From assembly GCF_003991205.1 (NCBI RefSeq), contig NZ_RXOZ01000016.1:1-35206 (forward strand): 35,206 nucleotides of DNA, given 5' to 3'. Source of the DNA: Georgenia sp. SYP-B2076 (GTDB lineage Bacteria; Actinomycetota; Actinomycetes; Actinomycetales; Actinomycetaceae). This document shows positions 2,856 to 22,891 of the stretch, one piece after another; position 1 is the stretch's first letter, and every line of letters begins with the position of its first letter. A program made the translations under genes and the position numbers. The notes under the pieces are model-generated. The model did no database searches. It was not told the DNA's origin and worked only from the letters and a program-made list of their open reading frames with translations.

Positions 2856-2904
2856 TGGTGACCCCCGGGTGCGGCGGCGCACCGTGGAGGCGAGGAAGCC
2901 TCCC

Positions 2905-5532: not shown

Positions 5533-5561
5533 TTGACAGTTTCGGTCGGTTCTGGGAATGT
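5533..5561 (+). promoter_or_regulatory. Candidate promoter of the LacI-regulated operon
   Basis: TTGACA at 5533-5538 is a perfect -35 hexamer. A weak -10 candidate GAATGT at 5556-5561 follows with a 17-nt spacer and overlaps the first operator palindrome. Transcription would begin near 5568, just before the second palindrome. Confidence 0.5.
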
Positions 5562-5566
5562 TCCCA
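5553..5566. promoter_or_regulatory. LacI-type operator 1
   Basis: TGGGAA-TG-TTCCCA: perfect 6-bp arms around a 2-nt centre. It overlaps the likely -10 element, where bound repressor would block RNA polymerase. Confidence 0.55.
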
Positions 5567-5573
5567 TCACGCA

Positions 5574-5591
5574 GTTGGAAACGTTTCCAAC
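5574..5591. promoter_or_regulatory. LacI-type operator 2
   Basis: GTTGGAAACGTTTCCAAC is a perfect 18-bp palindrome with the central CG typical of LacI/GalR-family operators. It ends 28 nt before the repressor ATG, so the repressor most likely controls its own gene and the whole downstream operon. Confidence 0.75.
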
Positions 5592-5619
5592 CGCACTCTT
5601 CAACGAGGAAGGGAAACCC

Positions 5620-6675
5620 ATGACGCACCCGCGGGCCACGCTGCCGCAGGTCGCCGAGCGTGCCGGCGTTTCTCTTGCCTCGGCTTCCCGGGCGCTGAAT
5701 GGCACGGGTGCGAGCAAGGCGATGGTCGAGAAGGTCCGTGCCGCGGCAGAGGAGCTGGGCTACCACCCGCAAGCCATGGGTCGCTCGCTCCGGCTTCGAC
5801 GGACGCTTCAGATTGCGTTCGCCGTCGCCGACATCGGTAACCCCGTGTACGTGGAAATGATGACGGCGATCCAGGCCGTCGTCGCCGAGCATGGCTACCG
5901 CCTCGTGGTGGCGACCACGGGAGACACCCCCGAGTCCACCATCGAGCTCGTCCGCAGTGTCAGCGCGGGTCTGGTTGACGGGCTTGTCATCAGCCCGCTG
6001 CGCGTGAACGAGGCGCTGGTGGCAGAACTTGTGAGCTCGCAGCTACCGGTGGTCGTCATCGGCCGTTCGTTGGAGGGCGACCACCTCGATTCCGTCTCGA
6101 CCGACTCCGCCGGCGGCATCGGCCAGGCGGTCGAGCACCTCCTCGCGCTCGGCCGGCACCGGATCGGCTTTGTCAACGGTCCGGTGGACACCACTCCTGG
6201 TGAGGCTCGCCAGCGGGGATTCGACGCCGCGGTCGGTCGGTTCGGCCTCGCGAGGGAGACGGTCGACACCCAGATCGCCGACGACTTCACCGTGGCCTCG
6301 GGCCTCGCGGCTGCCACGACGCTGCTCCGCCGCCATGGCGGCGGTGACGCCCAGCTTGACGCCATCGTTGCCGCCAACGACCTGCTCGCCATCGGCGCCA
6401 TCAGGGCCGCCCGCGAGCAAGGTCTGCGCGTGCCCGAGGACCTCGCAGTCACCGGCATGGACGACACGGAGATCGGTCGGGTCTTTCTGCCCAGCCTGAC
6501 CAGCGTCTCGCTGCGTTCGAGCGAGCGCGGTCGTCGCGCCGCCGAAATCATGCTCGCCCTGCTCGAGGACCCCGGTCACCACCCGCAGAACGTCCTCGTC
6601 GAGCCAGTGCTGATGGCTCGGGAATCCACAGCGGCCAGCCAATCGGCCGACCTCGCCCAGGAGGAGAACGCATGA
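5620..6675 (+). CDS. LacI/GalR-family transcriptional repressor
   Basis: 351 residues from ATG 5620, chosen for the GAGGAAGGG ribosome site and because the operators lie upstream. The helix-turn-helix spans residues 7-30 (LPQVAERAGVSLASASRALN), followed by a hinge (GYHPQAMGRSLR) and a periplasmic-binding-protein-like sensor domain with VADIGNPVYVEMMTAIQ, DGLVISPL, RIGFVNGP, IVAANDLLAIGAI and TGMDDTEIG. It is the first gene of the operon; its stop overlaps the permease start by 4 nt. By family it is a ligand-released repressor; its ligand is presumably the transported compound or a breakdown product. Confidence 0.93.
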   Translation: MTHPRATLPQVAERAGVSLASASRALNGTGASKAMVEKVRAAAEELGYHPQAMGRSLRLRRTLQIAFAVADIGNPVYVEMMTAIQAVVAEHGYRLVVATTGDTPESTIELVRSVSAGLVDGLVISPLRVNEALVAELVSSQLPVVVIGRSLEGDHLDSVSTDSAGGIGQAVEHLLALGRHRIGFVNGPVDTTPGEARQRGFDAAVGRFGLARETVDTQIADDFTVASGLAAATTLLRRHGGGDAQLDAIVAANDLLAIGAIRAAREQGLRVPEDLAVTGMDDTEIGRVFLPSLTSVSLRSSERGRRAAEIMLALLEDPGHHPQNVLVEPVLMARESTAASQSADLAQEENA

Positions 6676-7640
6676 CAGCGCCGTCACTGGCCAGTGGCAG
6701 CCGCGAGGCGGCGCCCGTGCCGCGCCCGCCGAGCCCTCGGCGCCCCGTCAAGGTGGGTGGGGTCGGGCGCGCGAAGCGCCGGGAGGCCATCGCCCTCGTA
6801 CTGCCTTCGCTGCTACCGATCCTCATCTTCTCCGTCGCGCCGCTCGTCGTGGGTGTTCTTCTGGCTTTCACCGACGCCCGCCTCGTGCGTCGCCCCGAGT
6901 ACGAGTTCGTCGGCATCGACAACTTCAGCCGCCTCGTCGACAACGGCTTCTTCTGGGAGTCGTTCCGAATCGGTCTGGTGTGGGCGGTGTCGGTCACTCT
7001 GCTGCAGCTGGTCGCCGGCATGGGCCTGGCCCTGCTGCTCAACTCTGACCTGCGGCTGCAGGGCCTGACCCGCGTGCTCGCCCTCATCCCGTGGGCCATG
7101 CCGCCGGTCGTCGTGGCGATCATGTGGCGGATGATCTACTCCCCGAACGCCGGACCCCTCAACGCGTTCCTCGGCTCGGTGGGACTCCCCGACGACATCA
7201 ACTGGCTCGCCAACTTCGACACGGCGCTGCCGGCCGTCATCGTCGTCGGCGTCTGGCTCGGGATGCCGCAGACCACGGTCACCCTCCTGGCGGGGCTGCA
7301 GCAGATCCCTACCGAGCTCTACGAGGCGGCCTCCATGGACGGGGCCGGCGCGTCGCGGCGGTTCGTGAGCGTGACACTGCCGAGCCTGCGGCCCATCGTC
7401 ACCTCGATAACGTCGCTGAACTTCATCTGGAACTTCAACTCGTTCAGCCTCGTCTACGTGCTCACCGAGGGCGGCCCTGGCGGCAAGACCATGCTTCCGA
7501 TGCTCTTCACCTACCTGGAAGCGTTCAAGAACCGCAACATCGGCTATGCCGCCGCCATGGGCGTGGTGCTCGTCGTCGTGGTGGTGCTGTTGCTCGCGGC
7601 CTACCTGTGGTCGCAGTTCCGTGAGGAGAAGGAGCGCTGA
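6672..7640 (+). CDS. ABC sugar transporter permease, MalF/UgpA type
   Basis: 322 residues from ATG 6672, overlapping the repressor stop (ATGA). After a 35-residue polar N-terminus there are six likely membrane helices. The EAA loop that docks the ATPase is EAASMDGAGASRRFVSVTLP near residues 217-236. This is binding-protein-dependent transport permease 1 for a carbohydrate. Its partner permease starts within its stop codon. No ATPase gene is in the operon, common in actinobacteria where a shared MsiK-type ATPase serves many sugar importers (inference here). Confidence 0.93.
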   Translation: MTAPSLASGSREAAPVPRPPSPRRPVKVGGVGRAKRREAIALVLPSLLPILIFSVAPLVVGVLLAFTDARLVRRPEYEFVGIDNFSRLVDNGFFWESFRIGLVWAVSVTLLQLVAGMGLALLLNSDLRLQGLTRVLALIPWAMPPVVVAIMWRMIYSPNAGPLNAFLGSVGLPDDINWLANFDTALPAVIVVGVWLGMPQTTVTLLAGLQQIPTELYEAASMDGAGASRRFVSVTLPSLRPIVTSITSLNFIWNFNSFSLVYVLTEGGPGGKTMLPMLFTYLEAFKNRNIGYAAAMGVVLVVVVVLLLAAYLWSQFREEKER

Positions 7641-8467
7641 TGCGTGCAGTCGTCAAGCCGGCGCAGTACGCCGCGCTGTTCTTCTACATCCTTTTCCTGG
7701 GCTTCCCGCTGCTCTGGCTCCTCTCGGCGTCGGTGAAGTCCTCGGGCGAGCTGAACTCCCTCACGGTCAACCTCGTCCCGCAGGAGTGGCGCTGGGACAA
7801 TTTCTCGACGGCCCTCGATCGGCAGGGGCTCGTGCGCTCGGCCGGCAACTCCGTGGTCGTGGCCCTCGTCTCCACGGCGCTCGTCATCCTCATCGCCCTG
7901 CCCGCGGCATACGCGCTCGCCCGCTTCAAGGGCTTGCTCCGCACAGTCGGGACGGGATGGATCCTGGTGAGCCAGGTGTTCCCGGTGATCCTCATCATCC
8001 TGCCGCTCTTCCTCATCCTGCGGACGATGAACCTCACCGACTCCCTGGTGGGCCTGACCCTCGTCCACACCACCTACACCTTGCCTTTCGCGCTGTGGAT
8101 GCTCCAGGGATACATCTCCGCGATCCCCAACGAGCTCGAGGAGGCCGGGGCGATGGACGGCGCCGGCCGGGTAGCAGTGCTCGCTCGGATCGTTTTCCCG
8201 CTCCTCATGCCCGGCGTCGTCGCCACGGCCATGTTCTCGTTCGTCTCGTCATGGAACGAGTTCTTCTTCGCGCTGGTGCTCCTCCAGTCCCCGGAGAACT
8301 ACACCCTGCCCATCACTCTGAAGATGTTCGTCGGAGGCGAGGGCAAGGTCGCCCTCGGTCCGCTCGCGGCCGGCTCGGTCATGGCCGCCATACCCAGCAT
8401 CGTCTTCTTCTCGATCATGCAGAAGAAACTCACCGGCGGGCTCCTGTCCGGTGCCGTCAAAGGTTGA
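7640..8467 (+). CDS. ABC sugar transporter permease, MalG/UgpE type
   Basis: 275 residues; ATG 7640 shares one base with the preceding stop (TGATG). Six likely membrane helices, beginning FFYILFLGFPLLWLL. The EAA loop is EEAGAMDGAGRVAVLARIVF near residues 168-187. It should pair with the upstream permease to form the membrane channel of a carbohydrate importer. Length is normal for the family (270-300). Confidence 0.93.
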   Translation: MRAVVKPAQYAALFFYILFLGFPLLWLLSASVKSSGELNSLTVNLVPQEWRWDNFSTALDRQGLVRSAGNSVVVALVSTALVILIALPAAYALARFKGLLRTVGTGWILVSQVFPVILIILPLFLILRTMNLTDSLVGLTLVHTTYTLPFALWMLQGYISAIPNELEEAGAMDGAGRVAVLARIVFPLLMPGVVATAMFSFVSSWNEFFFALVLLQSPENYTLPITLKMFVGGEGKVALGPLAAGSVMAAIPSIVFFSIMQKKLTGGLLSGAVKG

Positions 8468-8495
8468 TCCCCCTCTCTGCTGAAAGGCAACCGAT

Positions 8496-9797
8496 ATGAA
8501 AATGCGTGGCGCTTCCATCGCAGCAAGCCTCACGGCCGGCGTCCTCTTTCTCTCCGCCTGCGGAGGGGGAGCCGGAGGCAGTGACGAGGCCACCGACGGC
8601 GGCCCCGCGGGGGAGGGGACTCCCATCACCCTCGAGTTCCAGTCCCTCTCCGACCAGCCCGCCGCCATCGAGGCCACCGAGAGCATCGTGGCGGCCTGGA
8701 ACAAGGCCAATCCGGATGTCCAGGTGGAGATCGTCCCCGCAGGCTGGGACGGCATCTACGACAAGCTCATCACCCAGTTCAACGGTGGCGCGGCGCCGGA
8801 CATCATCCACTACGAGGCGGCCAGCATCGTGCCGTTCGCGGTAGACGGCTACCTCGCGGACCTCTCCGAGTACCTGCCGAAGGAGTTCGACGTTCCCGAG
8901 GGCATCCTCAAGGCCGTCACCGTCAACGACGAGGTCATCGCCTATCCGACCGAGCTGCAGTCCTACATGGTCTTCGCCAACAAGGCGATGCTCGACGCGG
9001 CCGGGGTGGAGATCCCCTCGGGCGAGACCATGACCTGGGACGAGCTGCGCGGGCTGGCCAAGGCCAGCACACTCGATGGCAAGTTCGGCCTCGGTTGGGG
9101 CCTGAAGAGCCCCACGGCCGCGTTCATGACCATGGGCCCGACGTTCGGCGGCACCTACTTCGGCGGCACCGGCGCCGACGCCGAGCTCACGATCGGCGAC
9201 GGCGAGCTCGCCATCCCCCAGCTTGTCAACGCGATGAACACCGAGGACAAGTCCATCCTGCCCGTCACCTTGACCCAGTCGGGCTCGGAGACCCTGGCCT
9301 CCTTCTATGCCGGTGAGATCGCGATGACGATCCAGGGCTCCTTCCAGGCGGCCAACATCGCCAAGGACGCGCCGGAGGGCTTCGAGTGGGTCGTGCTGCC
9401 GCCGCTGGAGGGGCCGGAGGGAGCCGGGCAGGCCGCCAACCCGCAGACCCTCTCGGTGAACATCGACTCGGAGCACGTCGAGCAGGCCGCCGAGTTCCTC
9501 AACTTCTTCACGCAGCCGGAGAACCTCGCAGCGCTCAACGAGGCCGACGCGCTCATCCCGGCGTCCACCTCCGCCCAGGAGCTGATGGCGAAGAACCTCG
9601 GCGACGACCCGAACTGGCAGACGGTCCTCTCGTCGGGCCAGCACATGACCGACGCGCCGTACCTGTTCGTCGACGCCTACGCCCAGTGGAAGGACACGGT
9701 GGCGACACCTGCGTTCCAGCGCTTCCTCGCCGGTGAGATCGACTCCGACGGCCTGGCGAAGGAGCTGCAGGCCGGCTGGGACGAGATCACCGCCTGA
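8496..9797 (+). CDS. ABC transporter extracellular solute-binding lipoprotein (family 1 sugar type)
   Basis: 433 residues from ATG 8496 with a GAAAGG ribosome site. The lipoprotein signal ends in the lipobox LSAC with the lipidated Cys at residue 22, followed by a Gly/Ser/Asp linker. The rest is a MalE-like fold: ITLEFQSLSDQPA, IVAAWNKANPDVQVEIVPAGW near residues 65-85, GGAAPDIIHYEAA near 97-109, YPTELQSYMVFANKAML near 150-166. It captures the substrate outside the membrane and delivers it to the two permeases. The family binds mono- or oligosaccharides and related polar solutes; ligand unknown. Confidence 0.93.
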   Translation: MKMRGASIAASLTAGVLFLSACGGGAGGSDEATDGGPAGEGTPITLEFQSLSDQPAAIEATESIVAAWNKANPDVQVEIVPAGWDGIYDKLITQFNGGAAPDIIHYEAASIVPFAVDGYLADLSEYLPKEFDVPEGILKAVTVNDEVIAYPTELQSYMVFANKAMLDAAGVEIPSGETMTWDELRGLAKASTLDGKFGLGWGLKSPTAAFMTMGPTFGGTYFGGTGADAELTIGDGELAIPQLVNAMNTEDKSILPVTLTQSGSETLASFYAGEIAMTIQGSFQAANIAKDAPEGFEWVVLPPLEGPEGAGQAANPQTLSVNIDSEHVEQAAEFLNFFTQPENLAALNEADALIPASTSAQELMAKNLGDDPNWQTVLSSGQHMTDAPYLFVDAYAQWKDTVATPAFQRFLAGEIDSDGLAKELQAGWDEITA

Positions 9798-9804
9798 CCG
9801 ACAG

Positions 9805-9824
9805 GCCGAGGAGCTCTCCTCGGC
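9805..9824 (+). terminator. Stem-loop just after the binding-protein gene
   Basis: GCCGAGGA and TCCTCGGC form an 8-bp stem with a 4-nt loop, eight bases after the binding-protein stop. No T-run follows. It could act as partial terminator or 3' end protector of the transporter mRNA. Confidence 0.4.
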
Positions 9825-9834
9825 GAGACATCAT

Positions 9835-9880
9835 CCCGGGGCCGCGCTACTAAGCCGCCGCCCGGCCACGCGGCCCCGGG
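9835..9880 (+). terminator. Strong stem-loop between transporter and enzyme genes
   Basis: CCCGGGGCCGCG (9835-9846) and CGCGGCCCCGGG (9869-9880) form a perfect 12-bp GC stem with a 22-nt loop. With the preceding hairpin it separates transporter genes from enzyme genes and may reduce, rather than abolish, read-through. Confidence 0.5.
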
Positions 9881-9965
9881 CGAATCGTGACCTGTGAGCG
9901 CGAGCATCCCTCGCCGGGCACCGACGCACGAGCCACACACGAACCAACGGACCAGGAGCAGACAC

Positions 9966-11141
9966 GTGAGCTGGTTGGAAGACCGCGCCGTCGCGGTGAT
10001 CACCGGAGCCGCGGTGGGCGACGCGCTCGGCGGGGCCACCGAGGGCTGGACCCCCGAGCAGATCGAGGAGCGCCACGGCGGCCGGGTCACCGGCATCGTC
10101 GGCCCCTGGTACCCGAACTGGAAGGATGCCCGCCCCATCGCGCCCTACCACAAGGGCGACGGACACATCACCGACGACACCCTCATGACCCAGGCCCTCG
10201 TGGAGGTCTATGCCAAGCGCCGCGACCACCTCGACGCCTATGCCGTCGCCGAGGACCTCGTGCCCCTCATGATCGGCGAGCCCCGCTGGATCCCCGAGCT
10301 CGAGACCGACGCCCTGATCCTCCAGCGCGTCTTCCTCGCCGAGAAGTGGATCGTCGCCCGCCTGCACTACGGCCACGTCGACCCCCGCGAGGCCGGCGTG
10401 GGCAACATCGTCAACTGCGGCGCCGCCATGTACATGGCCCCCGTCGGCATTGCCAACGCCGGCGACCCCGCCGGCGCGTACGCCGAGGCCATCGACATCG
10501 CGGGCGCCCACCAGTCCAGCTACGGCCGCGAGGCCGCCGGGGTCTTCGCCGCCGCCGTGGCCGCCGCGCTCACCCCCGGGGCTTCCGTCGACGGCGTCGT
10601 CGCTGCTGCCCTCGATGTCGCCCACGACGGCACCTACGATGCCCTCCGTGCGGTGGTCGACGCCGTCGCCGGCACGACGCCGCCGCGCACCGACGACGAG
10701 GAGCGCGCCCTGGCGGCCCTCATCCGCGCGGCCGTCGCGCCCTACGACTCCGTGGGCCCGGAGTACCGCAACATGTCCCGCGACGCCCGCCGTCCCTCGC
10801 GCACGAAGTCCATCGAGGAGCTTCCCGCCGCGATCGGCTTCGTGCTCGGCCACCGCGGCGACTTCCGCGGTGCCGTGCTCGGCGCCGTCAACTACGGCCG
10901 CGACGCCGACTCCATCGCCGTCATGGCCGGTGCCGTCACCGCCGCGCTGGGCGGCACCCCCGTCGTGCCCACCGAGTGGCTCGACCAGATCGAGACCGCC
11001 AGCCGCATGGACATCCGCGCAACCGGCCGGCTCATGGCAGGGGCCGCCGCGGACATCCTGCGCGCCGACGCCGAGCGTGCTGAACAGCGGCTGCACGTTC
11101 TGGGCCGGGTGGCCGAGCGGCAGGGGAGTGAGGTGGCGTGA
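9966..11141 (+). CDS. ADP-ribosylglycohydrolase (ARH/DraG) family protein 1
   Basis: 391 residues from GTG 9966, chosen for AGGAG 7 nt upstream; a GTG at 9894 would add 24 non-conserved residues. The dimetal site of the ARH fold looks intact: GAAVGDALGGATEG near residues 14-27, ITDDTLMTQ near 68-76, and NYGRDADSIAVMAGA near 307-321. Family enzymes hydrolyse the glycosidic bond of ADP-ribosylated protein or of small ribosides. Being cytoplasmic, behind an importer and before a ribokinase-like gene, this one more likely cleaves an imported ribosyl-type glycoside than a modified protein (inference). Confidence 0.88.
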   Translation: MSWLEDRAVAVITGAAVGDALGGATEGWTPEQIEERHGGRVTGIVGPWYPNWKDARPIAPYHKGDGHITDDTLMTQALVEVYAKRRDHLDAYAVAEDLVPLMIGEPRWIPELETDALILQRVFLAEKWIVARLHYGHVDPREAGVGNIVNCGAAMYMAPVGIANAGDPAGAYAEAIDIAGAHQSSYGREAAGVFAAAVAAALTPGASVDGVVAAALDVAHDGTYDALRAVVDAVAGTTPPRTDDEERALAALIRAAVAPYDSVGPEYRNMSRDARRPSRTKSIEELPAAIGFVLGHRGDFRGAVLGAVNYGRDADSIAVMAGAVTAALGGTPVVPTEWLDQIETASRMDIRATGRLMAGAAADILRADAERAEQRLHVLGRVAERQGSEVA

Positions 11142-12493
11142 GGCTCACCTGGGCCCAGCCCGAGGACCTGCTCGCGCACGAGCTGGTCCAGTCGGCCGCC
11201 GAGGGCAAGGACACCGCCGCCGTCGTAGCCCGGTGGGAGGCGGCCGGCGGCAGCACGGTCCCCGCGGTCAGCGGCGCCAGCGCCATCCCGGCCCCGCCCG
11301 AGCGGCGCGCGCTGGCCCGCGAGCTGCTGGGTGAGCTGCAGGACCTGGCGGCCGCGCCCGCCCCGGCCGAACCCGACGACTGGGAGGAGATCGCCGCCCT
11401 CCTGCCCGCCGCGCCCCGCCTGGCAGCACCGCGACCGGCCGGACTCGACCGCCGGGTGCGCGGCGGCTGGACCGGTCGTGCCGCCGGCTGCCTGCTCGGC
11501 AAGCCCGTGGAGAAGATCCCCCGGCACGGCATCGAGGAGATCCTCCGTGCCACCGGCCGGTGGCCGCTGGACCGCTACTTCACCGCCGTCGGCCTCGCTG
11601 ACCACGTCGCCGCGCGCTGGCCGTGGAACCGGCGCAGCGCCCCGACGTCCCTGGAGGAGAACATCGCCGGCATGCCCGAGGACGACGACCTCAACTACCC
11701 CCTCCTCGCGCTCGACCTCCTCGAGCGCCGCGGCACCGGCTTCACCACCGAGGACGTCGCCCAGCTCTGGCTGGACAACCTGCCCGCCGGCCGGGTGTTC
11801 ACCGCGGAGCGCGCCGCCTACCGCAACATCCTCGACGCCCGCCCGGTGCCCGAGACGGCCACGTTCCTCAACCCCTTCCGGGAGTGGATCGGCGCTCTCA
11901 TCCGCACGGACGTCTACGGCTGGGTCACGCCCGGCGACCCGCGCGCCGCGGCGCGCCTGGCCTGGACCGACGCGCGCCTGAGCCACACCCGCAACGGCAT
12001 CTACGGCGCCATGTGGGCCGCGGCGCTCTGCTCGGCCGCGATGGCCCGCGACACGGTCGACGAGGTCCTCGACGCCGCCGAGAGCGTCATCCCGCCGGGC
12101 AGCCGCCTCGCCGCGGCGGTCAGCCTCGGCCGCCAGACGGCCGCCGAGACCGAGGACGTCGCCGCCGGGCTGGACCGACTGCACGCCGCCTACGGGCACC
12201 TGCACTGGGTGCACGTGCTCAACAACGCCGCTGTCATAGCCTACGCCCTCGCCGCCGGTCGCGGCATGTTCGGGCCGAGCGTGGCGATCGCCGTCACAGC
12301 CGGGTGGGACACGGACTCGGCAGGCGCCACGGTCGGCTCGGTGCTTGGCGCCCTCCTCGGGCCCGACGGCATCGGGGAGCAGTGGACCGCGCCGATCGAC
12401 GGTCGTATCGCCACGTCCCTGCCCGGCGGGGACCAACGGCGGATCGAGGACCTCGCGCTGCGCACGCGGCGCCTGCAGGAGGGAGCCCGGTGA
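11138..12493 (+). CDS. ADP-ribosylglycohydrolase family protein 2 (GCLLGKPVE subfamily)
   Basis: 451 residues from GTG 11138, overlapping the previous stop (GTGA). An N-terminal region of about 105 residues with no recognised domain precedes the ARH fold: GGWTGRAAGCLLGKPVEKIP near 109-128, PEDDDLNYPLLALDLL near 180-195, and AGWDTDSAGATVGSVLGA near 388-405. Relative to copy 1, the first metal motif has GC in place of GD and the second has EDDD in place of TDDT, while DTDS is kept. It belongs to a distinct subfamily and is not a recent duplicate. Translational coupling suggests the two act on the same or successive substrates; activity is inferred. Confidence 0.85.
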   Translation: MRLTWAQPEDLLAHELVQSAAEGKDTAAVVARWEAAGGSTVPAVSGASAIPAPPERRALARELLGELQDLAAAPAPAEPDDWEEIAALLPAAPRLAAPRPAGLDRRVRGGWTGRAAGCLLGKPVEKIPRHGIEEILRATGRWPLDRYFTAVGLADHVAARWPWNRRSAPTSLEENIAGMPEDDDLNYPLLALDLLERRGTGFTTEDVAQLWLDNLPAGRVFTAERAAYRNILDARPVPETATFLNPFREWIGALIRTDVYGWVTPGDPRAAARLAWTDARLSHTRNGIYGAMWAAALCSAAMARDTVDEVLDAAESVIPPGSRLAAAVSLGRQTAAETEDVAAGLDRLHAAYGHLHWVHVLNNAAVIAYALAAGRGMFGPSVAIAVTAGWDTDSAGATVGSVLGALLGPDGIGEQWTAPIDGRIATSLPGGDQRRIEDLALRTRRLQEGAR

Positions 12494-13431
12494 GCGGCCA
12501 CGTCGTGGTGGTCGGCAGCGCGAACGTCGACCTGGTGGTGGACGTCCCGCGACATCCGGGCCCGGGAGAGACGATCCTCGGCGGGGAGCTGGTCCGTAGC
12601 CCCGGCGGCAAGGGCGCCAACCAGGCGGTCGCCGCAGCCCGCGCCGGCGGCGCGGACACCACCTTCCTCGGGGCGTTGGGCCGCGATGATGCTGCCGAGC
12701 TGCTGCTGGCCTCGCTCGAGCGCGCCGGGGTGCACACCGACCTGGTCGCGCGCCCCCACGCCGGCACCGGCACCGCGCTCATCAGCGTGACCGCCGACGG
12801 CGAGAACGCCATCATCGTCGCGCCGGGCGCCAACTCCCTCCTCACCGTCGACGACCGTGCCGCCGCCCGGCTCGCGCAGGCGGACGTGGTCCTCGCCCAG
12901 CTCGAAGTGCCCCTGGAAACCGTGCTCGCCGCCGCCCGCGCCCGCCGGCGCGGCGCGGTGTTCGCGCTCAACGCCGCGCCCTCCCGAGACCTGCCCGCGG
13001 ACGTGTGGGCGGAGGTGGACCTGCTCATCGTCAACGAGCACGAGGCCGCCGACCTCGCACGCACGACGGGCGGTGAGCAGTCGGCCGCCGAGGCGCCCAC
13101 GGAGCTCGCCATGGCCCTGCTCGCCCGGGTGCCCGCCGTCGTCATCACGCTCGGCGCCGCCGGCGCCCTGGTGGCCGAGCGCGGCGCCGACCCCGTCACC
13201 GTGCCCGCCCCCCGCGTCACCCCGGTGGACACCACCGGCGCGGGGGACACCTTCTGCGGCGTGCTCGCCGCGGCCCTGGCCCACGGCGAGCCGCTCGCCG
13301 TCGCCGCCCGTCGCGCCGCCGCCGCGGGCGCGCTGGCCGTCACCCGGCCCGGCGCCCAGGCCGCCGTCCCGACGGCGGATGAGACCGGGGCGCTCGCCGC
13401 CCAGACCTACGCGCCCGTGGTGGAGCCGTGA
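12490..13431 (+). CDS. Ribokinase-like PfkB-family carbohydrate kinase
   Basis: 313 residues from GTG 12490 (GTGA overlap). PfkB signature 1 is GGKGANQAVAAARAGG near residues 38-53, after NVDLVVDVPRHPGPGETI. Signature 2 is DTTGAGDTFCGVLAAALA near 247-264, with the catalytic base Asp in GAGD near residue 253. The N-terminal pattern and length are those of ribokinase, which makes ribose 5-phosphate from ribose and ATP. Following two ARH-family hydrolases, phosphorylation of a released pentose is the likely role; other furanoses or nucleosides are possible. It is not called rbsK because the substrate is unproven. Confidence 0.9.
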   Translation: MSGHVVVVGSANVDLVVDVPRHPGPGETILGGELVRSPGGKGANQAVAAARAGGADTTFLGALGRDDAAELLLASLERAGVHTDLVARPHAGTGTALISVTADGENAIIVAPGANSLLTVDDRAAARLAQADVVLAQLEVPLETVLAAARARRRGAVFALNAAPSRDLPADVWAEVDLLIVNEHEAADLARTTGGEQSAAEAPTELAMALLARVPAVVITLGAAGALVAERGADPVTVPAPRVTPVDTTGAGDTFCGVLAAALAHGEPLAVAARRAAAAGALAVTRPGAQAAVPTADETGALAAQTYAPVVEP

Positions 13432-15461
13432 CCTACACCTTCGACCCGCTCGTCCCGCGACCCATCGACCTGCCCACCCTCGTCCCGCTCGACGCGGTCG
13501 CGCGCCTGGAGGACCTGGACGAGGCGAAGATCTTCGCCGCCCCGGACGACCCGGCCGACTGGCCCGCCTGGCGCGCGCGCCTCACCGCCTGGCGGGAGGA
13601 CGCCCGCGCCCGCCACCACTACGACGGCGCCGCCTACGAGCGCCCGCAGTCCGCCTGGGCCGCCCGCTGCTTCTCGGTCGCGCAGGTGTGGCTGTGGGAC
13701 GAGCTGCTCTTCGACTTCGGCGCGCAGCGCTTCACCCCGGACCGCTTCCTCGCCGACGCCCACGAACGCCTCGGCGGCCTCGACGCCGTCGTGCTCTGGC
13801 ACGCCTACCCCGTCATCGGCATCGACGGGCGCAACCAGTGGGACCACTACCGCGACGTCCCCGGCATCGAGCGGCTCGTCGCCGACCTCCACGCCGCCGG
13901 TCTGCACGTCTTCGTCGACTACAACCCCTGGGACACCGGCACCCTGCGCGCCACCGGCGACGACGTCACCGAGCTCGCCGCCCTGGTACGCGACCTCCAG
14001 GCCGACGGCGTCTTCCTCGACACCCTCAAGAAGGCCGAGCCCGACCTGGTCGACCGGCTCGAGGCCGCCCGCCCCGGCATCGTGCTCGAGGGCGAGTCCA
14101 AGCTCGCCGTCGAGCGCATCGTGGACCACTCCGCCTCCTGGGCGCAGTTCTTCGCCGACTCCGCCGTCCCCGGCGTGCTGCGCGCCCACTGGTACGAGCG
14201 GCGCCACATGCAGCACCACATCCGCCGCTGGCACCGCGACCACTCCGAGGAGCTGCAGTCCGCCTGGGTCAACGGCGCCGGCGTCATGGTCTGGGAGGTC
14301 GTCTTCGGGGTCTGGGTCGGGTGGAACGCCCGCGACGCCGCCACGCTGCGCCGCATGGTCACCCTCCAGCGCGCCGCCGCCGACCTGCTGCTCGAGGGGG
14401 AGTGGACCCCGCTCGCGCCCCTCGCCCCGGCCGCGCACGGCGCCGGCGTCCACGCCTCCACCTTCACCCGCGACGGCGTCACGCTCTGGACGCTGGTCAA
14501 CCGCGGCAAGACCGACTACACCGGCCCCGTCCTCGACGACCCGCCGGCGGGCACGCTCCTCGACCTCACCGGCGGCCCCGCGGCGGGGCGCTCCGACGGG
14601 CACGGCGGCGCTCGCCCTGCCGTGACGGTCCCGGCCCGCTCCATCGCAGCCCTGCTGCAGGTGGAGCCGGGCACCCCCCAGCCGTCCTGGCTCCCGGGAC
14701 TGCGCGAGGACCTCGCCGGGCTCCCGCACGACGGCGACGCGTCCTTCCCGCACCGCGTCGCCCGGCGCCTCGCACCCGAGCCGCCCGCCCCGGTGCGCCG
14801 CGACCGGGTGCCGGCTGACGCCGTCGGCGTCCCCGCCGGGGACTACGTGCTCACCGTGCGCTACCGGGCGCGCGAGACCGGCATGTACCAGGGCGCGCCG
14901 TACGTGGACGAGTGGAAACCGCTCGCGCCACGGCTGCACGACGCCCGCACCCTGCAACGCACCGGCACGCTGGACCGGCCCATCGCCGTCGCCGCCACCG
15001 AGGTGACCAACGCCGAGTACGCCGAGTTCCTCGCCGCCACGGGCTACCGGCCCACGGTGACGCACCGTTTCCTGGGGAACTGGCTCGCCGGTCGCGTGCC
15101 CGCCGCAGCGGACGACGCCCCGGTGACCTACGTGGACCTCGACGACGCCCGCGCCTACTGCGCCTGGCGCGGCGGGCGGCTGCCCACCGAGGACGAGTGG
15201 CAGCTCGCCGGGCAGACCGGCCGGCTGCGCCGCGGCAGCCCCGCGGTGTGGAACTGGACCGAGAGCGAGCACAGCGACGGCCGCACCCGCTTCGCGATGC
15301 TCAAGGGTGGCGCCGACTACGCCGCCGAGGGTTCGGAGTGGTACTTCGACGGCGGCCGCCAGGCGCCGGACTTCACCGCCAAGCTGCTCGTGCCGGGGCT
15401 GGGCGTCACCCGCAGCCCGAGCATCGGCTTCCGCTGCGCCTGGACCCTGGAGGATCGATGA
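13428..15461 (+). CDS. Fusion: TIM-barrel glycosidase-like domain + FGE/SUMF1-like domain
   Basis: 677 residues from GTG 13428 (GTGA overlap). Residues about 1-400 look like a barrel hydrolase: LDAVVLWHAYPVIGIDGRNQ, LHVFVDYNPWDTGT near 158-171, GVFLDTLKKAEPDL with an Asp near 198, and GIVLEGESKL with a Glu near 221, two plausible catalytic acids; I cannot assign a GH family. A beta-rich linker follows. Residues about 465-674 are a formylglycine-generating-enzyme-like domain: ATEVTNAEYAEFL, YCAWRGGRLPTEDEWQLAG, VWNWTESE and the closing SIGFRCAW. The Cys pair of true FGE is absent, since the segment after MLKGG has no Cys. No signal peptide, so it is cytoplasmic. Its role is unknown; processing of the imported glycoside is the contextual guess. 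Confidence 0.8.
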   Translation: MTYTFDPLVPRPIDLPTLVPLDAVARLEDLDEAKIFAAPDDPADWPAWRARLTAWREDARARHHYDGAAYERPQSAWAARCFSVAQVWLWDELLFDFGAQRFTPDRFLADAHERLGGLDAVVLWHAYPVIGIDGRNQWDHYRDVPGIERLVADLHAAGLHVFVDYNPWDTGTLRATGDDVTELAALVRDLQADGVFLDTLKKAEPDLVDRLEAARPGIVLEGESKLAVERIVDHSASWAQFFADSAVPGVLRAHWYERRHMQHHIRRWHRDHSEELQSAWVNGAGVMVWEVVFGVWVGWNARDAATLRRMVTLQRAAADLLLEGEWTPLAPLAPAAHGAGVHASTFTRDGVTLWTLVNRGKTDYTGPVLDDPPAGTLLDLTGGPAAGRSDGHGGARPAVTVPARSIAALLQVEPGTPQPSWLPGLREDLAGLPHDGDASFPHRVARRLAPEPPAPVRRDRVPADAVGVPAGDYVLTVRYRARETGMYQGAPYVDEWKPLAPRLHDARTLQRTGTLDRPIAVAATEVTNAEYAEFLAATGYRPTVTHRFLGNWLAGRVPAAADDAPVTYVDLDDARAYCAWRGGRLPTEDEWQLAGQTGRLRRGSPAVWNWTESEHSDGRTRFAMLKGGADYAAEGSEWYFDGGRQAPDFTAKLLVPGLGVTRSPSIGFRCAWTLEDR

Positions 15462-16666
15462 CCGTCTCGCGCGACAGCACCGACGGCGCCCTCGCCGGCC
15501 TGAAGGTGGTGGACGCCTCCACCCTCTTCGCCGGCCCCATGGCCGCCATGCACCTCGGTGACATGGGCGCCGACGTCATCAAGGTCGAGCACCCCACCAA
15601 GCCGGACCCCTCCCGCGGGCACGGCGCCGCCAAGGACGGCGTCAACCTGTGGTGGAAGACCCTCGGCCGCAACAAGCGTGCCGTCACCGCGAACCTCGGC
15701 TCCGACGGCGGCCGGCGGGTCTTCCTCGCACTCGCCGCCGAGGCCGACGTGGTCATCGAGAACTTCCGCCCCGGCACCCTGGAGCGGTGGGGCCTCGGCT
15801 ATGACGAGCTGGCCGCCGCCAACCCCGGCCTGGTGCTCGCCCGGGTCAGCGGCTTCGGGCAGCTCGGCCCGTACCGCACCCGGCCCGGGTTCGGCACCCT
15901 CGCCGAGGCGATGAGCGGGTTCGCGGCCATGACGGGCGAGCCCTACGGGCCACCCACCCTGCCGCCGTTCGGCCTGGCCGACGGCGTCGCCTCCCTCGCC
16001 ACCGCGTTCGCCATCATGATCGCCCTGCGCTCGCGGGAGGCCACCGGCCGCGGGCAGGTGGTGGACGTGGCGATCATCGAACCGATCCTGGCCATGCTCG
16101 GCCCGCAGATCACCCGCTGGGACCAGCTCCGCACGGTCCAGCCCCGGTTCGGCAACCGGTCCGTCAACAACGCACCGCGCAACACGTACCGCACTAAGGA
16201 CGGCCAGTGGGTGGCGGTGTCCACCTCGGCGCAGTCCATCGCCGAGCGGGTGATGCGACTCGTGGGCCGGCCGGAGCTCATCGACGAGCCGTGGTTCGCC
16301 GTCGGTGCCGAGCGGGCCCGGCACGCCGACGAGCTCGATGAGGCGGTGGGCGGCTGGATCGCTCGGCACACCCGGGAGCAGGTGGTGGCCGCGTTCGAGA
16401 AGGCACAGGCTGCCGCCGCGCCGATCTACGACGCCGAGGACATCGTGGCCGATCCGCAGTTCCAGGCGTTGGGCACCATCCACGACATCGAGGACCCCGA
16501 GCTGGGGCCCATGAAGATGCAGGGCCCGCTGTTCCGGCTCTCCGGGCACGACGGCGTCATCGCCTTCACCGGCCGCCCGCACGGCGCCGACACCGACACC
16601 GTGCTGGGCGAGCTCGGCTTCTCGGCCGAGGAGATCGCCGCCCTGCGGTCGGAGGACGCGATATGA
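15458..16666 (+). CDS. Family III (CaiB/BaiF) CoA transferase
   Basis: 402 residues from ATG 15458 (ATGA overlap; GGAGG just upstream). Visible are GLKVVDASTLFAGPMAAMHL near 12-31, LGDMGADVIKVEHP near 31-44, NKRAVTANL, VIENFRPGTLERWGLGYDEL near 104-123, and FGLADGVASL with the expected catalytic Asp near residue 175. TGRGQVVDVAIIEPIL and a variable C-terminal lid follow. The family moves CoA between a thioester and a carboxylic acid through aspartyl-CoA anhydride. Coupled to a CitE-type lyase, it probably activates a hydroxy- or dicarboxylic acid such as a citramalate-like compound (inference). Confidence 0.9.
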   Translation: MTVSRDSTDGALAGLKVVDASTLFAGPMAAMHLGDMGADVIKVEHPTKPDPSRGHGAAKDGVNLWWKTLGRNKRAVTANLGSDGGRRVFLALAAEADVVIENFRPGTLERWGLGYDELAAANPGLVLARVSGFGQLGPYRTRPGFGTLAEAMSGFAAMTGEPYGPPTLPPFGLADGVASLATAFAIMIALRSREATGRGQVVDVAIIEPILAMLGPQITRWDQLRTVQPRFGNRSVNNAPRNTYRTKDGQWVAVSTSAQSIAERVMRLVGRPELIDEPWFAVGAERARHADELDEAVGGWIARHTREQVVAAFEKAQAAAAPIYDAEDIVADPQFQALGTIHDIEDPELGPMKMQGPLFRLSGHDGVIAFTGRPHGADTDTVLGELGFSAEEIAALRSEDAI

Positions 16667-17502
16667 GCGCCTCGGTGCTGACGCTGCTGTATGTGCCCGC
16701 GGACCGACCCGACCGGGTGGCCAAGGCGCTGGCCTCAGAGGCCGACGTGGTGATCGTGGACCTCGAGGACGCCGTGGCCCCGGCGCACAAGGATCTCGGG
16801 CGCGAGCAGGTGGCCCGGCTGCTCGCCGGGGTCGACCGGCCGGTGCAGGTGCGGGCGAACCACCCGGCGACGCCGTGGCACACCGCCGACGTCGAGGTGG
16901 TGGCGGCCCTGCCGCCCGTGGTCGGCGTGCGGGCACCCAAGGTCGAGTCCGCCGATGAGGTGCGCCGGCTCGCATCCCAGGTGCCCGGGCGGGCGCTGCA
17001 CCTGCTCATCGAGTCCGCCCTCGGGGTGGAACACGCCTTCGAGATCGCGACGGCCTCGGACCAGGTGGCCACGCTCGGCCTGGGGGAGGCCGACCTGCGC
17101 TCAGACCTGAGGGTCGACGACGACGCCGGGCTGGCGTGGGTGCGCTCGCGGATCGTCACCGCCGCCCGCGCGGCCCGGCTGCCCTCGCCGGCGATGTCCG
17201 CCTACCCGAACGTGAAGGACGTCGAGGGGCTCATCGCCTCCTGCCACGCCGGACGTGCCCTCGGGTTCCTCGGCCGGGCGGCCATCCACCCCGCCCAGCT
17301 CGCGCACATCCAGCAGGCATTCCGGCCCAGCGAGGTGGAGGCCGAGAAGGCCCGTGCCGTCGTCGCACGAGTGGGCGAGGCCCACACCGAGGGCGTCGGC
17401 GCGATCGCGCTGGAGGACGGAACGTTCCTCGACGTCGCGATGGTGGAGCAGGCGCGGGCGGTGCTCGCGCTGACGGAACGGACGGGCCCCACGCCCGGCT
17501 GA
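16663..17502 (+). CDS. CitE-like HpcH/HpaI-family lyase
   Basis: 279 residues from ATG 16663 (ATGA overlap). It has the citE TIM-barrel pattern: LLYVPADRPDRVAKAL near 8-23, DVVIVDLEDAVAP near 28-40 with VRANHPATPW near 65-74, APKVESADEV, the metal ligand Glu in LLIESALGVEHAF near 107-119, and the Asp of LGLGEADLRSDL near 133-144. Family members cleave beta-hydroxyacyl-CoA thioesters such as malyl- or citramalyl-CoA to acetyl-CoA and an oxoacid. Length fits stand-alone lyases. With the adjacent CoA transferase it could form a two-step acid degradation module; the exact acid is unknown. Confidence 0.88.
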   Translation: MSASVLTLLYVPADRPDRVAKALASEADVVIVDLEDAVAPAHKDLGREQVARLLAGVDRPVQVRANHPATPWHTADVEVVAALPPVVGVRAPKVESADEVRRLASQVPGRALHLLIESALGVEHAFEIATASDQVATLGLGEADLRSDLRVDDDAGLAWVRSRIVTAARAARLPSPAMSAYPNVKDVEGLIASCHAGRALGFLGRAAIHPAQLAHIQQAFRPSEVEAEKARAVVARVGEAHTEGVGAIALEDGTFLDVAMVEQARAVLALTERTGPTPG

Positions 17503-17534
17503 GGAAGCTCGGATCAATTCTCAAAGGGGAGAAG

Positions 17535-19721
17535 ATGCAGCAGCTCAAACGCAGAAGGACCGTCCGGCGCGCACTTGGCGCCCTCGCCGGCGCGGTGGTC
17601 GCCGTCGCGGGCATCACCGTCGCCCTGCCCGCGCTCGCCGCTGAGACCGGCACGCTCGTCACGGCCCAGGCGCCCTCGTCCGCGACCGGCGCCATCGACT
17701 AAACCGTCTACCTCCCGCCCGGCTACGACGACGACGCCGAACGCCGGTACCCGTCCGTCTACCTGCTGCACGGGCGGGGCGATACCCAAGCTGCCTGGCA
17801 GCGCGTGAGCGCCGACCTGGACGAGCTCATCAACGCCGGCGCCATCCAGCCGATGGTCGTGGTCATGCCCGACGCGCCGTGGAACGCGCGCGGCAGCTGG
17901 TACACCGACTCCTTGTACACCGGTGACAAGAAGACCGGCGCGGGAGCGGGCGTCCCCGTCGAGACCGCCTTCACCCGTGACCTCGTCGACCATGTCGACG
18001 CCACGTACCGCACCGTCGATGACCGCGAGGCCCGCGCCGTCGGCGGGTACTCGATGGGCGGCGCCGGGGCCTTGCGGTTCACCCTCGCGCATCAGGACAC
18101 CTTCTCGGGGGGCATCGTGCTGAGCCCCGCGGTGTACGTCCCCCAGCCGCCCGCCGACTCCTCGACCCGCGACTACGGCGCCTACGGGGCGAAGCACAAG
18201 CTCTTCGACAAGCACCGCTACACCGAGCTGAGCTACCCGACCGCCCTGGAGGCACTCGACCCGGCGTTGCCGGTGCACCTGTTCATCGCGGTCGGCGACG
18301 ACGAGTGGGCCAACCCCGACCCCGCCGACGCCAGCCACGACCTCGACTTCGAGGCCGCGCAGCTGTACAACACCGCCCGCCGGGTCGACGGCGTCACCGC
18401 CGAGCTGCGCGTTCTCGACGGCGGGCACGACTGGGACGTGTGGCAGCCGGCCTTCCGCGAGGGCATCGTCGATGTCTCCGCGCGGCTGCGCACCGCGGCC
18501 GCGGAGCCGTGGGCGGCCGAGCTGCTCGGCACCACCGGTGATGACCGCGCCGGTGGCCTCCTCGTCGACGCCGATGGCGGCACCACCGTGGCGGTGAACG
18601 CGGCGGGGTCGCTCGCCGGGCTCCCGCACGCCGGCGGCCTGGACGTCGCGCTCCTTCGGCGCTCCGCCGACGGCGCGACCACGTGGCGGCACACCCTCGC
18701 CACCGGCGCCAACGATCGCGCCTACGGACTGGTCGCCGGTGATGGCGGTGCCACCTTGGTGGCCGGCTACACCCGCGGCAACCTCGATGGTGCCCACCCG
18801 TCGGGGGCGTTCGACGACGCGTTCGTCGCGGCCGTCGACGCGGCGGGCCAGCGTCTGTGGACCACCCAGTTCGGCGACGGCGCCGCCGCGGACCGGATCT
18901 ACGCCGCCGCGCCCGACGGCGCCGGCGGTGCGTACGTCGCCGGGTACACCTCTGGCAGCGTGGCCGGGGTGAGCGCCGGAGACAAGGACGCGCTGCTCGC
19001 CCGCGTGGACGGGGCCGGGGAGCTGCTGTGGGCCCGGCAGGTCGGCGGCCCGGGCGAGGACAAGGCGCTCGCGCTCGGGCTGGGGGCCGACGGCGGCGTC
19101 TACGTCGGTGGAGTGGCCGCGCAGGCGATGCCCGGCGGCACCCACGCGGGCGCGAACGACGCCTGGCTCGCCCGGTACACCGCCGACGGCGGCCAGGAGT
19201 GGCTGCAGCAGTTCGGCACGACCGGGAACGACCAGGTCAGCGGGCTCGTGGTCCGCGCGGACGGGACCGCGGTGGCGGTCGGGCACACCCGCGGATCCCT
19301 CGCCGGCGAGTCAGCGGGCGACAACGACGTCTTCGCCCGCGCCGTCGGTGTGACTGGCGCGGAGCTCTGGACCACGCAGGCCGGCACCGCCACCGACGAC
19401 CGCGGCGTCACCGGCGTGCTCGGGCAGCACGGGTCGGTGCTGCTCGTCGGCAACACCTACGGGGCCATGGGGACCGCGGTGGGCGGCGTGGACGTGTTCA
19501 CGCTCCAGCTCGGTGCTGACGGCGCCGCCGGCGAAGCCCGGCAGGTCGGGTCCGTGGACCGCGACGGCGCCGATGACTTCGATGACCCCAACCTCTTCGC
19601 CGCCACGGGGCCGGGAGCCCTGTGGCTCAGCGGGCTGACCTACGGGGCGCCGGAGCGGGCGACGAACGCCGGAGCCGGTGACGTGTTCCTGATGAAGCTC
19701 GCAGGAGGCGTGGTTCCGTAG
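17535..19721 (+). pseudogene. Secreted esterase with seven-bladed propeller, interrupted by in-frame TAA
   Basis: From ATG 17535 (GGGGAGAAG ribosome site) one frame runs 728 codons, broken only by TAA at 17700-17702 (codon 56), where the family would have Tyr (TAC) before TVYLPPGY. Residues 1-36 are a Sec signal peptide. The esterase-D/feruloyl-esterase-like alpha/beta hydrolase follows, with YLLHGRG, nucleophile Ser near 173 in GGYSMGGAGA, Asp near 255 and His near 298 in GGHDWDVW. From about 329 to the end come seven SBBP-type blades of 50-60 residues, each with a QFG/QVG-type start and a GYTxGxLAG-type turn. The intact-looking downstream frame suggests a recent nonsense mutation or sequence error. 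A restart at GTG 17805 would lack the signal peptide. Confidence 0.75.
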
Positions 19722-20104: not shown

Positions 20105-21208
20105 TCACCGGCCTCGAACGCGGACGAGGCTCTGGTGGGGGCTCTCGCCGTAGGTGCTGCGGTAGAGCTGGGCGAACCGGCCCAGGTGGGCGAAGCCCGA
20201 GCGGTGCGCCGCCTCGGCCACGGTCTCGGGCACCTCCCCGCCCTCCCCGGTCAGGCGGCGGTGAGCCTCGGCGAGCCGGATGCCTCGCAGGAGCGTGGTC
20301 GGCGTGAGACCGAACCGCTCCATGACCACCCACTGCAGTTGACGCACCGACAGGCCCACCGCGCGTGCGACGTCCGGCACCGTGACCGCGCTCCCGTGGT
20401 TCTCCGCCAGCCAGGCGCGAGCCGTCTCTGCGTGCGCCGTGGACACCCTGGCCGGAGCGCTCGCCAGGAGGCCGGTGTGGCTGTGCGGGACGGACAGCAG
20501 CGCGGCCGAGAGCAAGGTCTGTTCGAGCGAGCGTGCGGCGGCGTCGGGCAGGTCGGCACATCGGAAGAGCGTCTCCGCGACGCTCCGGCAGGCGGTGTCG
20601 AGGTACTCGGACGGCAGGGGCGGCCGCTCTGCGGAGCCGGCGCGGAACTCCAGGTCGCCGTCGGGCGGTGCGCCGGTGAGCGCCTCGAGGTGGTCGCGCA
20701 GGCGGCCGATCTCCGTCGCGACGACGAGCGCTCCGTCCCAGGGCTGCGGCGCCATGAGGGTCCGGCGGCCGGTGTGCAGGACGAACGGGGACGAGCGGAC
20801 CTGGTTGACCGCATGCACGCCGACGCCCATCGGACCCAGCGGCAGCGTGAGGACGAAGCGACCGCCGGTGGGGCCGGCCTCGACGAGGACGTCCGCCCCG
20901 TAGCGGACGAAGACGACGTTGGTCCCGGCCGCCTCCGAGGCGCCGACCACGCCGTCGAGCTCTCCGCCTCGCAGGGTGATCTCGTGGGGCGTCGCCGCGT
21001 GCGCGACCGACTCGCGGAGCTCGTCCAGGCGGCGGGTGCGCACCTCCAGCGCGGCGCCCGCGCCGCCCGTGGACGGACGTTCCGACGCCGTCCCGGCGCG
21101 CTTGCCGGCAGGCGGGGCCTGAGGCGCAAACGGCACCAGAGGGGGCCTGACCGACGGACTGGGGATCAGAAGGATCACCGCCTTCCCAAGGATGTGATCA
21201 TCCATCAC
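20105..21208 (-). CDS. AraC-family transcriptional regulator (cupin-like sensor plus HTH)
   Basis: Up to 367 residues if started at GTG 21208 (ATG 21205 directly follows). The first 50-55 residues are low-complexity and the nominal start lies inside an inverted repeat, so the true start is probably further in (GTG 21043 is one possibility). The middle is an AraC-type ligand-sensing domain from VRTRRLDELRESV. The C-terminal double HTH has AETARAWLAENHGSAVTVPD, GLSVRQLQWVVMERFGLTP and AEAAHRSGFAHLGRFAQLYR, then YGESP. It is codirectional with the SDR-FMO pair upstream and may regulate it or the operon to its left (inference). Confidence 0.87.
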   Translation of the reverse strand: MMDDHILGKAVILLIPSPSVRPPLVPFAPQAPPAGKRAGTASERPSTGGAGAALEVRTRRLDELRESVAHAATPHEITLRGGELDGVVGASEAAGTNVVFVRYGADVLVEAGPTGGRFVLTLPLGPMGVGVHAVNQVRSSPFVLHTGRRTLMAPQPWDGALVVATEIGRLRDHLEALTGAPPDGDLEFRAGSAERPPLPSEYLDTACRSVAETLFRCADLPDAAARSLEQTLLSAALLSVPHSHTGLLASAPARVSTAHAETARAWLAENHGSAVTVPDVARAVGLSVRQLQWVVMERFGLTPTTLLRGIRLAEAHRRLTGEGGEVPETVAEAAHRSGFAHLGRFAQLYRSTYGESPHQSLVRVRGR

Positions 21209-21214
21209 ATCCTT
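21188..21214. promoter_or_regulatory. 27-bp inverted repeat at the AraC gene start
   Basis: AAGGATGTGAT (21188-21198) and ATCACATCCTT (21204-21214) are perfect 11-bp arms around a 5-nt spacer. The site covers the nominal start codons of the AraC gene, suggesting an operator and a downstream true start. Confidence 0.55.
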
Positions 21215-21265
21215 GTGGGCGTCCAGGGCTCCGGACCGACAGGTAGCCCGTTTACGCCCCAGCCG

Positions 21266-21316
21266 GGGCGCACCGCCCGCGTCCCGAGGGGGACGAGGTC
21301 GGCGGCCGGTGCGCCC
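21266..21316 (-). terminator. Hairpin after the FMO gene
   Basis: GGGCGCACCG (21266-21275) pairs with CGGTGCGCCC (21307-21316) across a 31-nt loop, just beyond the FMO stop at 21322. A long-loop terminator or processing hairpin. Confidence 0.4.
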
Positions 21317-21321
21317 GGGCG

Positions 21322-22890: not shown

Positions 22891-22891
22891 C

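Follow-up and report, generated by a model that had tools for sequence, protein, structure and literature searches.

A conserved actinobacterial gene array joining ARH-family hydrolases to a CoA-transferase and a CitE-type lyase as a candidate operon for glycoconjugate catabolism

We analyzed a 35,206-nt stretch of DNA from Georgenia sp. SYP-B2076 (phylum Actinomycetota, class Actinomycetes; RefSeq assembly GCF_003991205.1, contig NZ_RXOZ01000016.1, positions 1 to 35,206), hereafter the window. Ten intact genes called from open reading frames (ORFs) lie on its + strand between positions 5620 and 17502, beginning with lacI and ending with the gene of a CitE-type lyase. We consider it highly probable that this array is one catabolic operon, and we lean, with less assurance, toward the specific reading that the operon is controlled by LacI and dedicated to one soluble glycoconjugate. 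Neighboring genes overlap by 4 nt at six of the nine junctions and by 1 nt at one, and gaps of 28 and 168 nt separate them at the other two. An earlier description made from the letters alone (the sequence-only reading) had spoken of eleven codirectional genes with mostly 1- to 4-nt overlaps, which is right once LacI and an esterase frame downstream of the lyase are counted in.

The first gene encodes a LacI-family repressor (5620-6675; Pfam LacI, 45.6 bits, cut-off 27; Peripla_BP_3, 115 bits). It is followed by two CUT1-type ATP-binding cassette (ABC) permeases (6672-7640, BPD_transp_1, 84.7 bits; and 7640-8467, BPD_transp_1, 64.2 bits) and by the solute-binding protein of the importer (8496-9797; SBP_bac_1, 128.8 bits). 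Two hydrolases of the ARH/DraG family come next: ARH1 (9966-11141; PF03747, 155.8 bits, cut-off 26.2), which has both acidic metal motifs, and the divergent ARH2 (11138-12493; PF03747, 153 bits), in which about 108 residues precede the domain. The start of ARH1 is a GTG at 9966, with in-frame alternatives as far back as 9894. The remaining genes encode a PfkB sugar kinase nearest to ribokinase (12490-13431; PfkB, 210.8 bits), a 677-residue fusion of a glycosidase-like part with a domain of the FGE/EgtB fold (13428-15461; FGE-sulfatase Pfam match in the rear part), a family III (CaiB/Frc) CoA-transferase (15458-16666; PF02515, 394.1 bits), and a CitE-family acyl-CoA lyase (16663-17502; PF03328, 96.9 bits, cut-off 25). 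These Pfam matches agree with the gene families named in the sequence-only reading; the one exception is the front of the fusion, whose first 400 residues have no Pfam hit at E ≤ 1.

The array is conserved in other genera. The fusion could be aligned in 304 stretches of named genomes, and the best 80 were kept as loci for conservation counts; 71 of these 80 were complete, the fusion being preceded by at least 8 kb and followed by at least 2.3 kb. A gene was scored as present if a tblastn match covered 25% or more of the query. We found that the order of the genes present is the same as in the window in all 71 complete loci. Both permeases, the binding protein, and ARH2 occur in 71 of them, lacI and ARH1 in 70, the transferase and the lyase in 69 each, the kinase in 62, and a linked match to the esterase in 17. 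In the Nocardiopsis coralli locus (L056), lacI and the genes of ARH1, the kinase, the transferase, and the lyase are missing, and the Amycolatopsis taiwanensis locus (L116) lacks transferase and lyase. The flanks are not common: among 568 other predicted ORFs of the 80 loci, the widest cluster reaches only 9 loci, and the conserved block is therefore sharply bounded. Given that the order is kept throughout and that the flanks are not shared, the array is not a chance assembly. The sequence-only reading had seen in it a tightly coupled operon, to be checked by seeking the same gene order in other actinobacterial genomes; the neighborhood is indeed conserved there, between flanks that differ.

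Named genomes with the fusion include members of Georgenia, Oerskovia, Cellulosimicrobium, Promicromonospora, Cellulomonas, Microbacterium, Amycolatopsis, Kribbella, and Glycomyces. Among 394 genomes of the class, 21 encode the fusion (the genome of the window included), and the block is seen in 18 of 20 loci taken from such genomes, two of these 18 lying on contigs that begin at ARH1; L043 and L045 are the two loci without it. Two pairs of loci (L026 and L093; L027 and L108) are identical places that were fetched twice.

Two observations on individual relatives may be recorded here. Five Kribbella loci (L115, L120, L121, L123, and L125) have an insert between ARH1 and ARH2 whose genes run on the opposite strand; it encodes a protein with a signal-like start in all five and, in three, also one resembling a PhoD phosphatase. 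ARH1 of Sphaerisporangium cinnabarinum ATCC 31213 and that of Cellulosimicrobium funkei JCM 14302 (L079 and L085) are identical, and the Sphaerisporangium record may be mislabeled.

Regulatory sites connect the array to the esterase. Upstream of lacI, the window has a LacI-type operator, the 18-nt perfect palindrome GTTGGAAACGTTTCCAAC (5574-5591), and a second, imperfect palindrome, TTCTGGGAATGTTCCCATCA (5550-5569), possibly a weaker operator, as paired sites in relatives suggest; a LacI repressor with operators of its own had been proposed already. Operators were counted in the 68 named loci that have lacI and at least 200 nt upstream of it. The sequence TTGGAAACGTTTCCAA, located upstream of lacI in the window, recurs with at most 3 mismatches in 62 of the 68, the exact inner 14-mer of the operator in 40, and at least two operator places (16-mer, at most 3 mismatches) in 47, mostly 31 to 35 nt apart. 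In the genome of the window itself, the 16-mer core is unique to this operon even when 2 mismatches are allowed.

We also searched for the 14-mer in 28 whole genomes, the one of the window and 27 others picked mainly for showing the motif, so that its presence in them is unsurprising. An exact copy lies at the operon in 27 of the 28 (Georgenia satyanarayanai P7 has none), and the reversed motif, used as a control, gave no match in any of the 28. A copy away from the operon was found in only two genomes, Microbacterium mitrae and Promicromonospora sp. AC04. In M. mitrae, it is on another contig, 31 nt 5′ of the first ATG of an unlinked esterase gene whose product combines PF00756 with beta-propeller repeats and is the orthologue of the interrupted esterase of the window. 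Because the operator precedes this unlinked orthologue, which is independent evidence, we place the esterase in the regulon of the operon, as the sequence-only reading had done by making it part of the unit. In Promicromonospora sp. AC04 (L153, 6088-6101), the extra operator lies where a different lacI-like gene begins; this gene is followed by a PfkB gene and faced by the gene of an Ig-like-repeat protein.

In the window, the esterase frame (17535-19721, + strand) begins 32 bases 3′ of the lyase gene and has an apparent signal peptide at its start. The secreted esterase of the sequence-only reading is thus present as a frame, but it is not intact: a TAA at 17700-17702 interrupts it at codon 56. 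None of the 17 matching places of relatives that cover this site has a stop there. Both the PF00756 domain and the weak beta-propeller repeats are encoded in the frame beyond the stop.

ARH1 is more widespread than the fusion, being found in 62 of 394 class genomes and in 10 of 396 genomes of the phylum, and 43 of the 62 class loci with ARH1 have no linked fusion. All 29 loci fetched out of these 43 encode two further ARH-family proteins, ARH3 and ARH4, and 25 of the 29 have the transferase and the lyase within the fetched stretch; among the other four, L199 and L200 end at contig ends. Taking together the 121 loci (119 distinct) with ARH1 or ARH2, 79 have the fusion only, 29 have ARH3-ARH4 only, 13 have both, and none has neither (L028 and L033 are truncated by contig ends and their class is unsure). 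This distribution looks like functional replacement of one by the other. Fourteen of the 29 loci, which belong to one family, show no match to LacI or to the importer; gltB and lgt are near the cluster in all 14, and trpA-trpB in 13. The sequence-only reading had missed both this second branch and its importer-less version; both suggest that the stable core of the system is ARH1 together with the CoA-transferase and the lyase.

The importer-less loci also provide the best argument on the role of the last two genes. All 14 keep the transferase and the lyase while having neither importer nor fusion, which suggests that the pair treats the product of the ARH enzymes. An alternative is that the operon serves two tasks, with sugar import and cleavage on one side and, on the other, a transferase and a lyase that serve two-carbon metabolism (for example, through malyl-CoA made from glyoxylate that the pathway releases) and do not degrade an aglycone. 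CitE-type lyases work in both directions in known pathways, and the pair is absent from four loci that retain much else (L056, L116, L203, and L205). Nevertheless, the persistence of the pair beside the ARH genes in the 14 loci argues for a direct metabolic link, and we regard two separate tasks as unlikely.

ARH3 of the relatives keeps its metal motifs (TDDT/DADT). In an alignment of 39 ARH4 sequences (e.g., L029, 5488-6585), the first acidic motif is kept and the second acidic pair is lost; ARH4 may have changed its function. A homologue of the fusion, 44 to 46% identical, lies away from the operon in one genome (L043 of G217, 7832-9694), next to genes that resemble those of glycoside hydrolase (GH) families GH3 and GH16; the operon itself, at L215 in this genome, has no fusion.

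A whole-genome search found PF03747 at two places in the genome of the window, both within this operon. The motifs TDDT and DxDS are present in at least 95% of 117 aligned ARH1 sequences, and PEDDD and DTDS in at least 95% of 115 ARH2 sequences; acidic motifs of these types bind metal in ARH/DraG proteins. In PF03747 and in these motifs, the two proteins resemble the known DraG, ARH1, ARH3, and Tri1 proteins, but they score low to the characterized members and stand in a metabolic gene context. ARH1 of the window reaches 57.4 bits to the NCBIfam equivalog of DraG (cut-off 337.05) and 54.5 to that of Tri1 (cut-off 490); ARH2 matches no NCBIfam family, and a sequence search with it gave no solved relative. 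The equivalog scores rule out an arginine-specific DraG function. We think that ARH1 and ARH2 are probably small-molecule glycosidases.

Streptomyces coelicolor offers a comparison. In the papers cited here, SCO2026 is gltB (PMC9282665), the eight uncharacterized DraG/ARH homologues counted in this species include SCO2028 to SCO2031 (PMC9411070), three of these four being listed elsewhere too (PMC5087735), and the four are treated merely as candidate ADP-ribosyl hydrolases. From the order gltB, one gene, ARH3, ARH4, ARH1, and ARH2 in our loci, we infer by position that SCO2028 to SCO2031 are ARH3, ARH4, ARH1, and ARH2, followed by the transferase and the lyase; SCO2028 would then be ARH3 and SCO2030 ARH1. 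SCO2032 to SCO2034 are not named in the literature searched. The 14 matching loci next to gltB differ from the operon of the window in having no LacI, importer, or fusion nearby.

These proteins bear on a reading in which ARH1 and ARH2 are genuine ADP-ribosyl hydrolases that let the unit recover ADP-ribose, or ADP-ribosylated fragments, and pass ribose to the kinase. Membership in PF03747 with its metal motifs, a ribokinase-like partner gene, and the listing of SCO2028 to SCO2031 as DraG/ARH homologues would fit this reading. Moreover, the ARH-like SCO5809 is reported to strip phosphate-linked ADP-ribose from RNA (PMC11833690); the family therefore includes true ADP-ribosyl hydrolases. Yet the DraG and Tri1 scores of ARH1 are far below their cut-offs, and no ADP-ribosyltransferase, macrodomain, or Nudix protein was found by Pfam among the ten genes. 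Purified SCO2028 and SCO2030 had no detectable activity on uracil-alpha-ADP-ribose, the sole substrate in question (PMC13036486), which leaves other ADP-ribose substrates possible for them. ADP-ribose salvage also gives the transferase and the lyase no role, and we judge it quite improbable.

The fusion may provide another glycosidase. A model of its residues 1 to 431, built from 39 sequences, has a mean predicted local distance difference test score (pLDDT) of 86 and a predicted TM-score (pTM) of 0.88. Its nearest structures in Foldseek are TIM-barrel glycosidases, mostly of GH13 type, with TMq values of 0.42 to 0.54 and identities of 10 to 14% among the 50 matches listed. Two acidic residues are invariant in both of our alignments: D198, which closes strand 194-197, and E223, immediately beyond strand 219-222. 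A third, E221, does not vary among the 39 rows of one alignment but is replaced by Gly in L044 in the other, of 13 rows. The two invariant residues and the fold are compatible with a predicted retaining glycosidase of an undescribed family. The protein does not fall within GH13, as it has no Pfam match at E ≤ 1 and a fold that is only similar, and as it has Phe-Leu-Asp at residues 196 to 198 and so lacks the Arg that the GH13 signature places two residues ahead of the nucleophile. The rest of the fusion is modeled in the FGE/EgtB fold, in agreement with Foldseek and with the FGE-sulfatase profile (76.7 bits, cut-off 23.3). Formylglycine-generating enzymes (FGE) need an active-site cysteine pair. 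No conserved pair was found in the alignment, in which C670 is the only nearly invariant cysteine, and its lack rules out sulfatase maturation by this domain.

The permeases and the binding protein bear out the sugar ABC importer of the sequence-only reading, although the array has no ATPase gene. Two MalK-type ATPases are encoded elsewhere in the genome, and one SBP_bac_1 protein, two BPD_transp_1 proteins, and a MalK-type ATPase in the genome define a CUT1 importer. In its repressor, two permeases, binding protein, and distant ATPase, the operon is like known CUT1 carbohydrate operons with LacI, from which its enzyme set sets it apart. The nearest solved sequences of the binding protein are 5f7v (Lmo0181) and YesO, both distant, and both presumably binders of oligosaccharides. 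The ligand could be an ordinary oligosaccharide; the fusion would then be a GH13-like alpha-glycosidase by fold, and rare furanosyl branches would be removed by the ARH proteins. The importer type, the LacI regulator, the relatives of the binding protein, and the fold of the fusion all agree with such a ligand. However, it would leave unexplained both why 69 of the 71 complete loci have the transferase and the lyase and why an importer-less branch exists, and we hold it to be very unlikely.

Scoring of the kinase against ribokinase (TIGR02152) gave 271.2, under the cut-off of 299.65, whereas the PfkB cut-off was passed. A riboside or other pentoside, as earlier proposed, is not borne out: the case for pentose is weak because the kinase falls just short of the ribokinase cut-off and is dispensable in 9 of the 71 complete loci. 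Ribose as the sugar is therefore possible but doubtful; apiose and arabinofuranose are further candidates.

The solved structures nearest to the transferase are 10uh (formyl-CoA transferase), 4ed9, and 9br6 (succinate-hydroxymethylglutarate CoA-transferase). Its Asp aligns with that of 10uh, which we take to be catalytic, and the protein is a family III CoA-transferase. The lyase is nearest to 8khl, followed by malyl-CoA lyases and citrate lyase beta-like proteins; its Arg, Glu, and Asp, presumably the Mg site, align with those of 8khl and of the malyl-CoA lyase 5ugr, as in CitE-type enzymes. Pairs of a CoA-transferase and a CitE-family lyase are known from succinyl-CoA:malate CoA-transferase with malyl/citramalyl-CoA lyase and from the itaconate pathway (Ict-Ich-Ccl/RipC). 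Itaconate degradation can be ruled out here by the lack of a hydratase among the ten genes (Pfam), which the itaconate pathway has, and by low scores to RipC (145, cut-off 375) and mesaconate transferase (193.2, cut-off 700). That the acid is cleaved by way of its CoA ester seems reasonably likely.

Because a repressor, an importer, hydrolases of sugar bonds, a kinase, and a transferase/lyase pair stand together, glycoconjugate catabolism is the most economical explanation of the gene set, and the uptake, glycoside cleavage, and CoA-dependent acid cleavage of the earlier hypothesis remain its simplest reading. We propose the following route, all reactions of which are predicted. Outside the cell, the secreted esterase would trim or free an ester-bearing compound, and the CUT1 importer with a shared MalK-type ATPase would take up the glycoconjugate. 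ARH1 and ARH2 would hydrolyze glycosidic bonds in it by metal-dependent catalysis. In one branch the fused TIM-barrel glycosidase, and in the second branch ARH3-ARH4, would cut a further bond. The PfkB kinase would phosphorylate the released sugar. The acid part may be a 3-hydroxy-dicarboxylate, for which malate, citramalate, and 3-hydroxy-3-methylglutarate are examples; citrate is a further candidate. The family III transferase would turn the acid into a CoA ester, and the CitE-type lyase would split this ester, yielding an oxo-acid and either acetyl-CoA or a homologue of it.

Several observations weigh against this proposal. The kinase is absent from 9 of the 71 complete loci and the transferase and lyase from 2; the pair is likewise missing from the following 7.4 kb in L203 and L205 (2 of 27 untruncated second-branch loci), and ARH1 and ARH2 are truncated in L217. 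With 14 of 29 second-branch loci having no importer nearby, import need not belong to the function there. That no locus lacks both the fusion and ARH3-ARH4 is partly a matter of selection, because 92 of the 121 loci were found via the fusion, and independent exchanges are few, because the fusion-only state needs 4 changes on the ARH1 tree. The esterase of the window is broken, and SCO5809 acts on phosphate-linked ADP-ribose of RNA. Finally, the transferase and the lyase score far below every named NCBIfam equivalog cut-off, which makes the choice of acid a guess.

A catabolic operon with LacI and a CUT1 importer is of a known type; its enzyme set is undescribed in the literature searched. We found no description of this combination there, most subscription papers lying outside the search; the sequence-only reading likewise knew of no described pathway with it. 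Bacteroides rus ribose-scavenging loci reportedly place ribokinases beside glycoside- and nucleoside-cleaving enzymes, some with ADP-ribosylglycohydrolases; they are said to differ in their uptake system and in having no transferase/CitE pair. The S. coelicolor genes share with the 14 importer-less loci the nearby gltB and, by position, the ARH order and the transferase/lyase pair. If our reading is true, an adjacent four of the eight uncharacterized S. coelicolor DraG/ARH homologues would be metabolic glycosidases beside a CoA-transferase and a lyase. More broadly, and tentatively, we suggest that Actinomycetota have an undescribed catabolic pathway in which sets of two to four ARH-fold enzymes serve as ordinary glycosidases for a sugar-acid conjugate, that SCO2028 to SCO2031 and many other annotated ADP-ribosylglycohydrolases are not ADP-ribosylation enzymes, and that the fused TIM barrel is a new glycosidase family able to replace two of the ARH enzymes. 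The context thus suggests a plain metabolic role for some ARH proteins, which are usually thought to remove ADP-ribose from proteins. The operon also points to a glycosidase-like domain without family assignment, and to a compound common enough for many actinobacterial genera to keep a dedicated operon.

Other features of the window complete the description. A 20-nt perfect inverted repeat, GCCGAGGAGCTCTCCTCGGC (9805-9824, + strand), lies directly 3′ of the binding-protein gene and possibly forms an mRNA hairpin of putative function. Upstream of the operon, positions 2869-4269 encode a wax ester synthase/diacylglycerol acyltransferase (PF03007, PF06974). On the minus strand, 20105-27620 holds genes of an AraC-type regulator, an FMO-like monooxygenase, a luciferase-like monooxygenase, and a ChrR-type cupin, together with one ORF that resembles RidA; these genes may form a second catabolic cluster.

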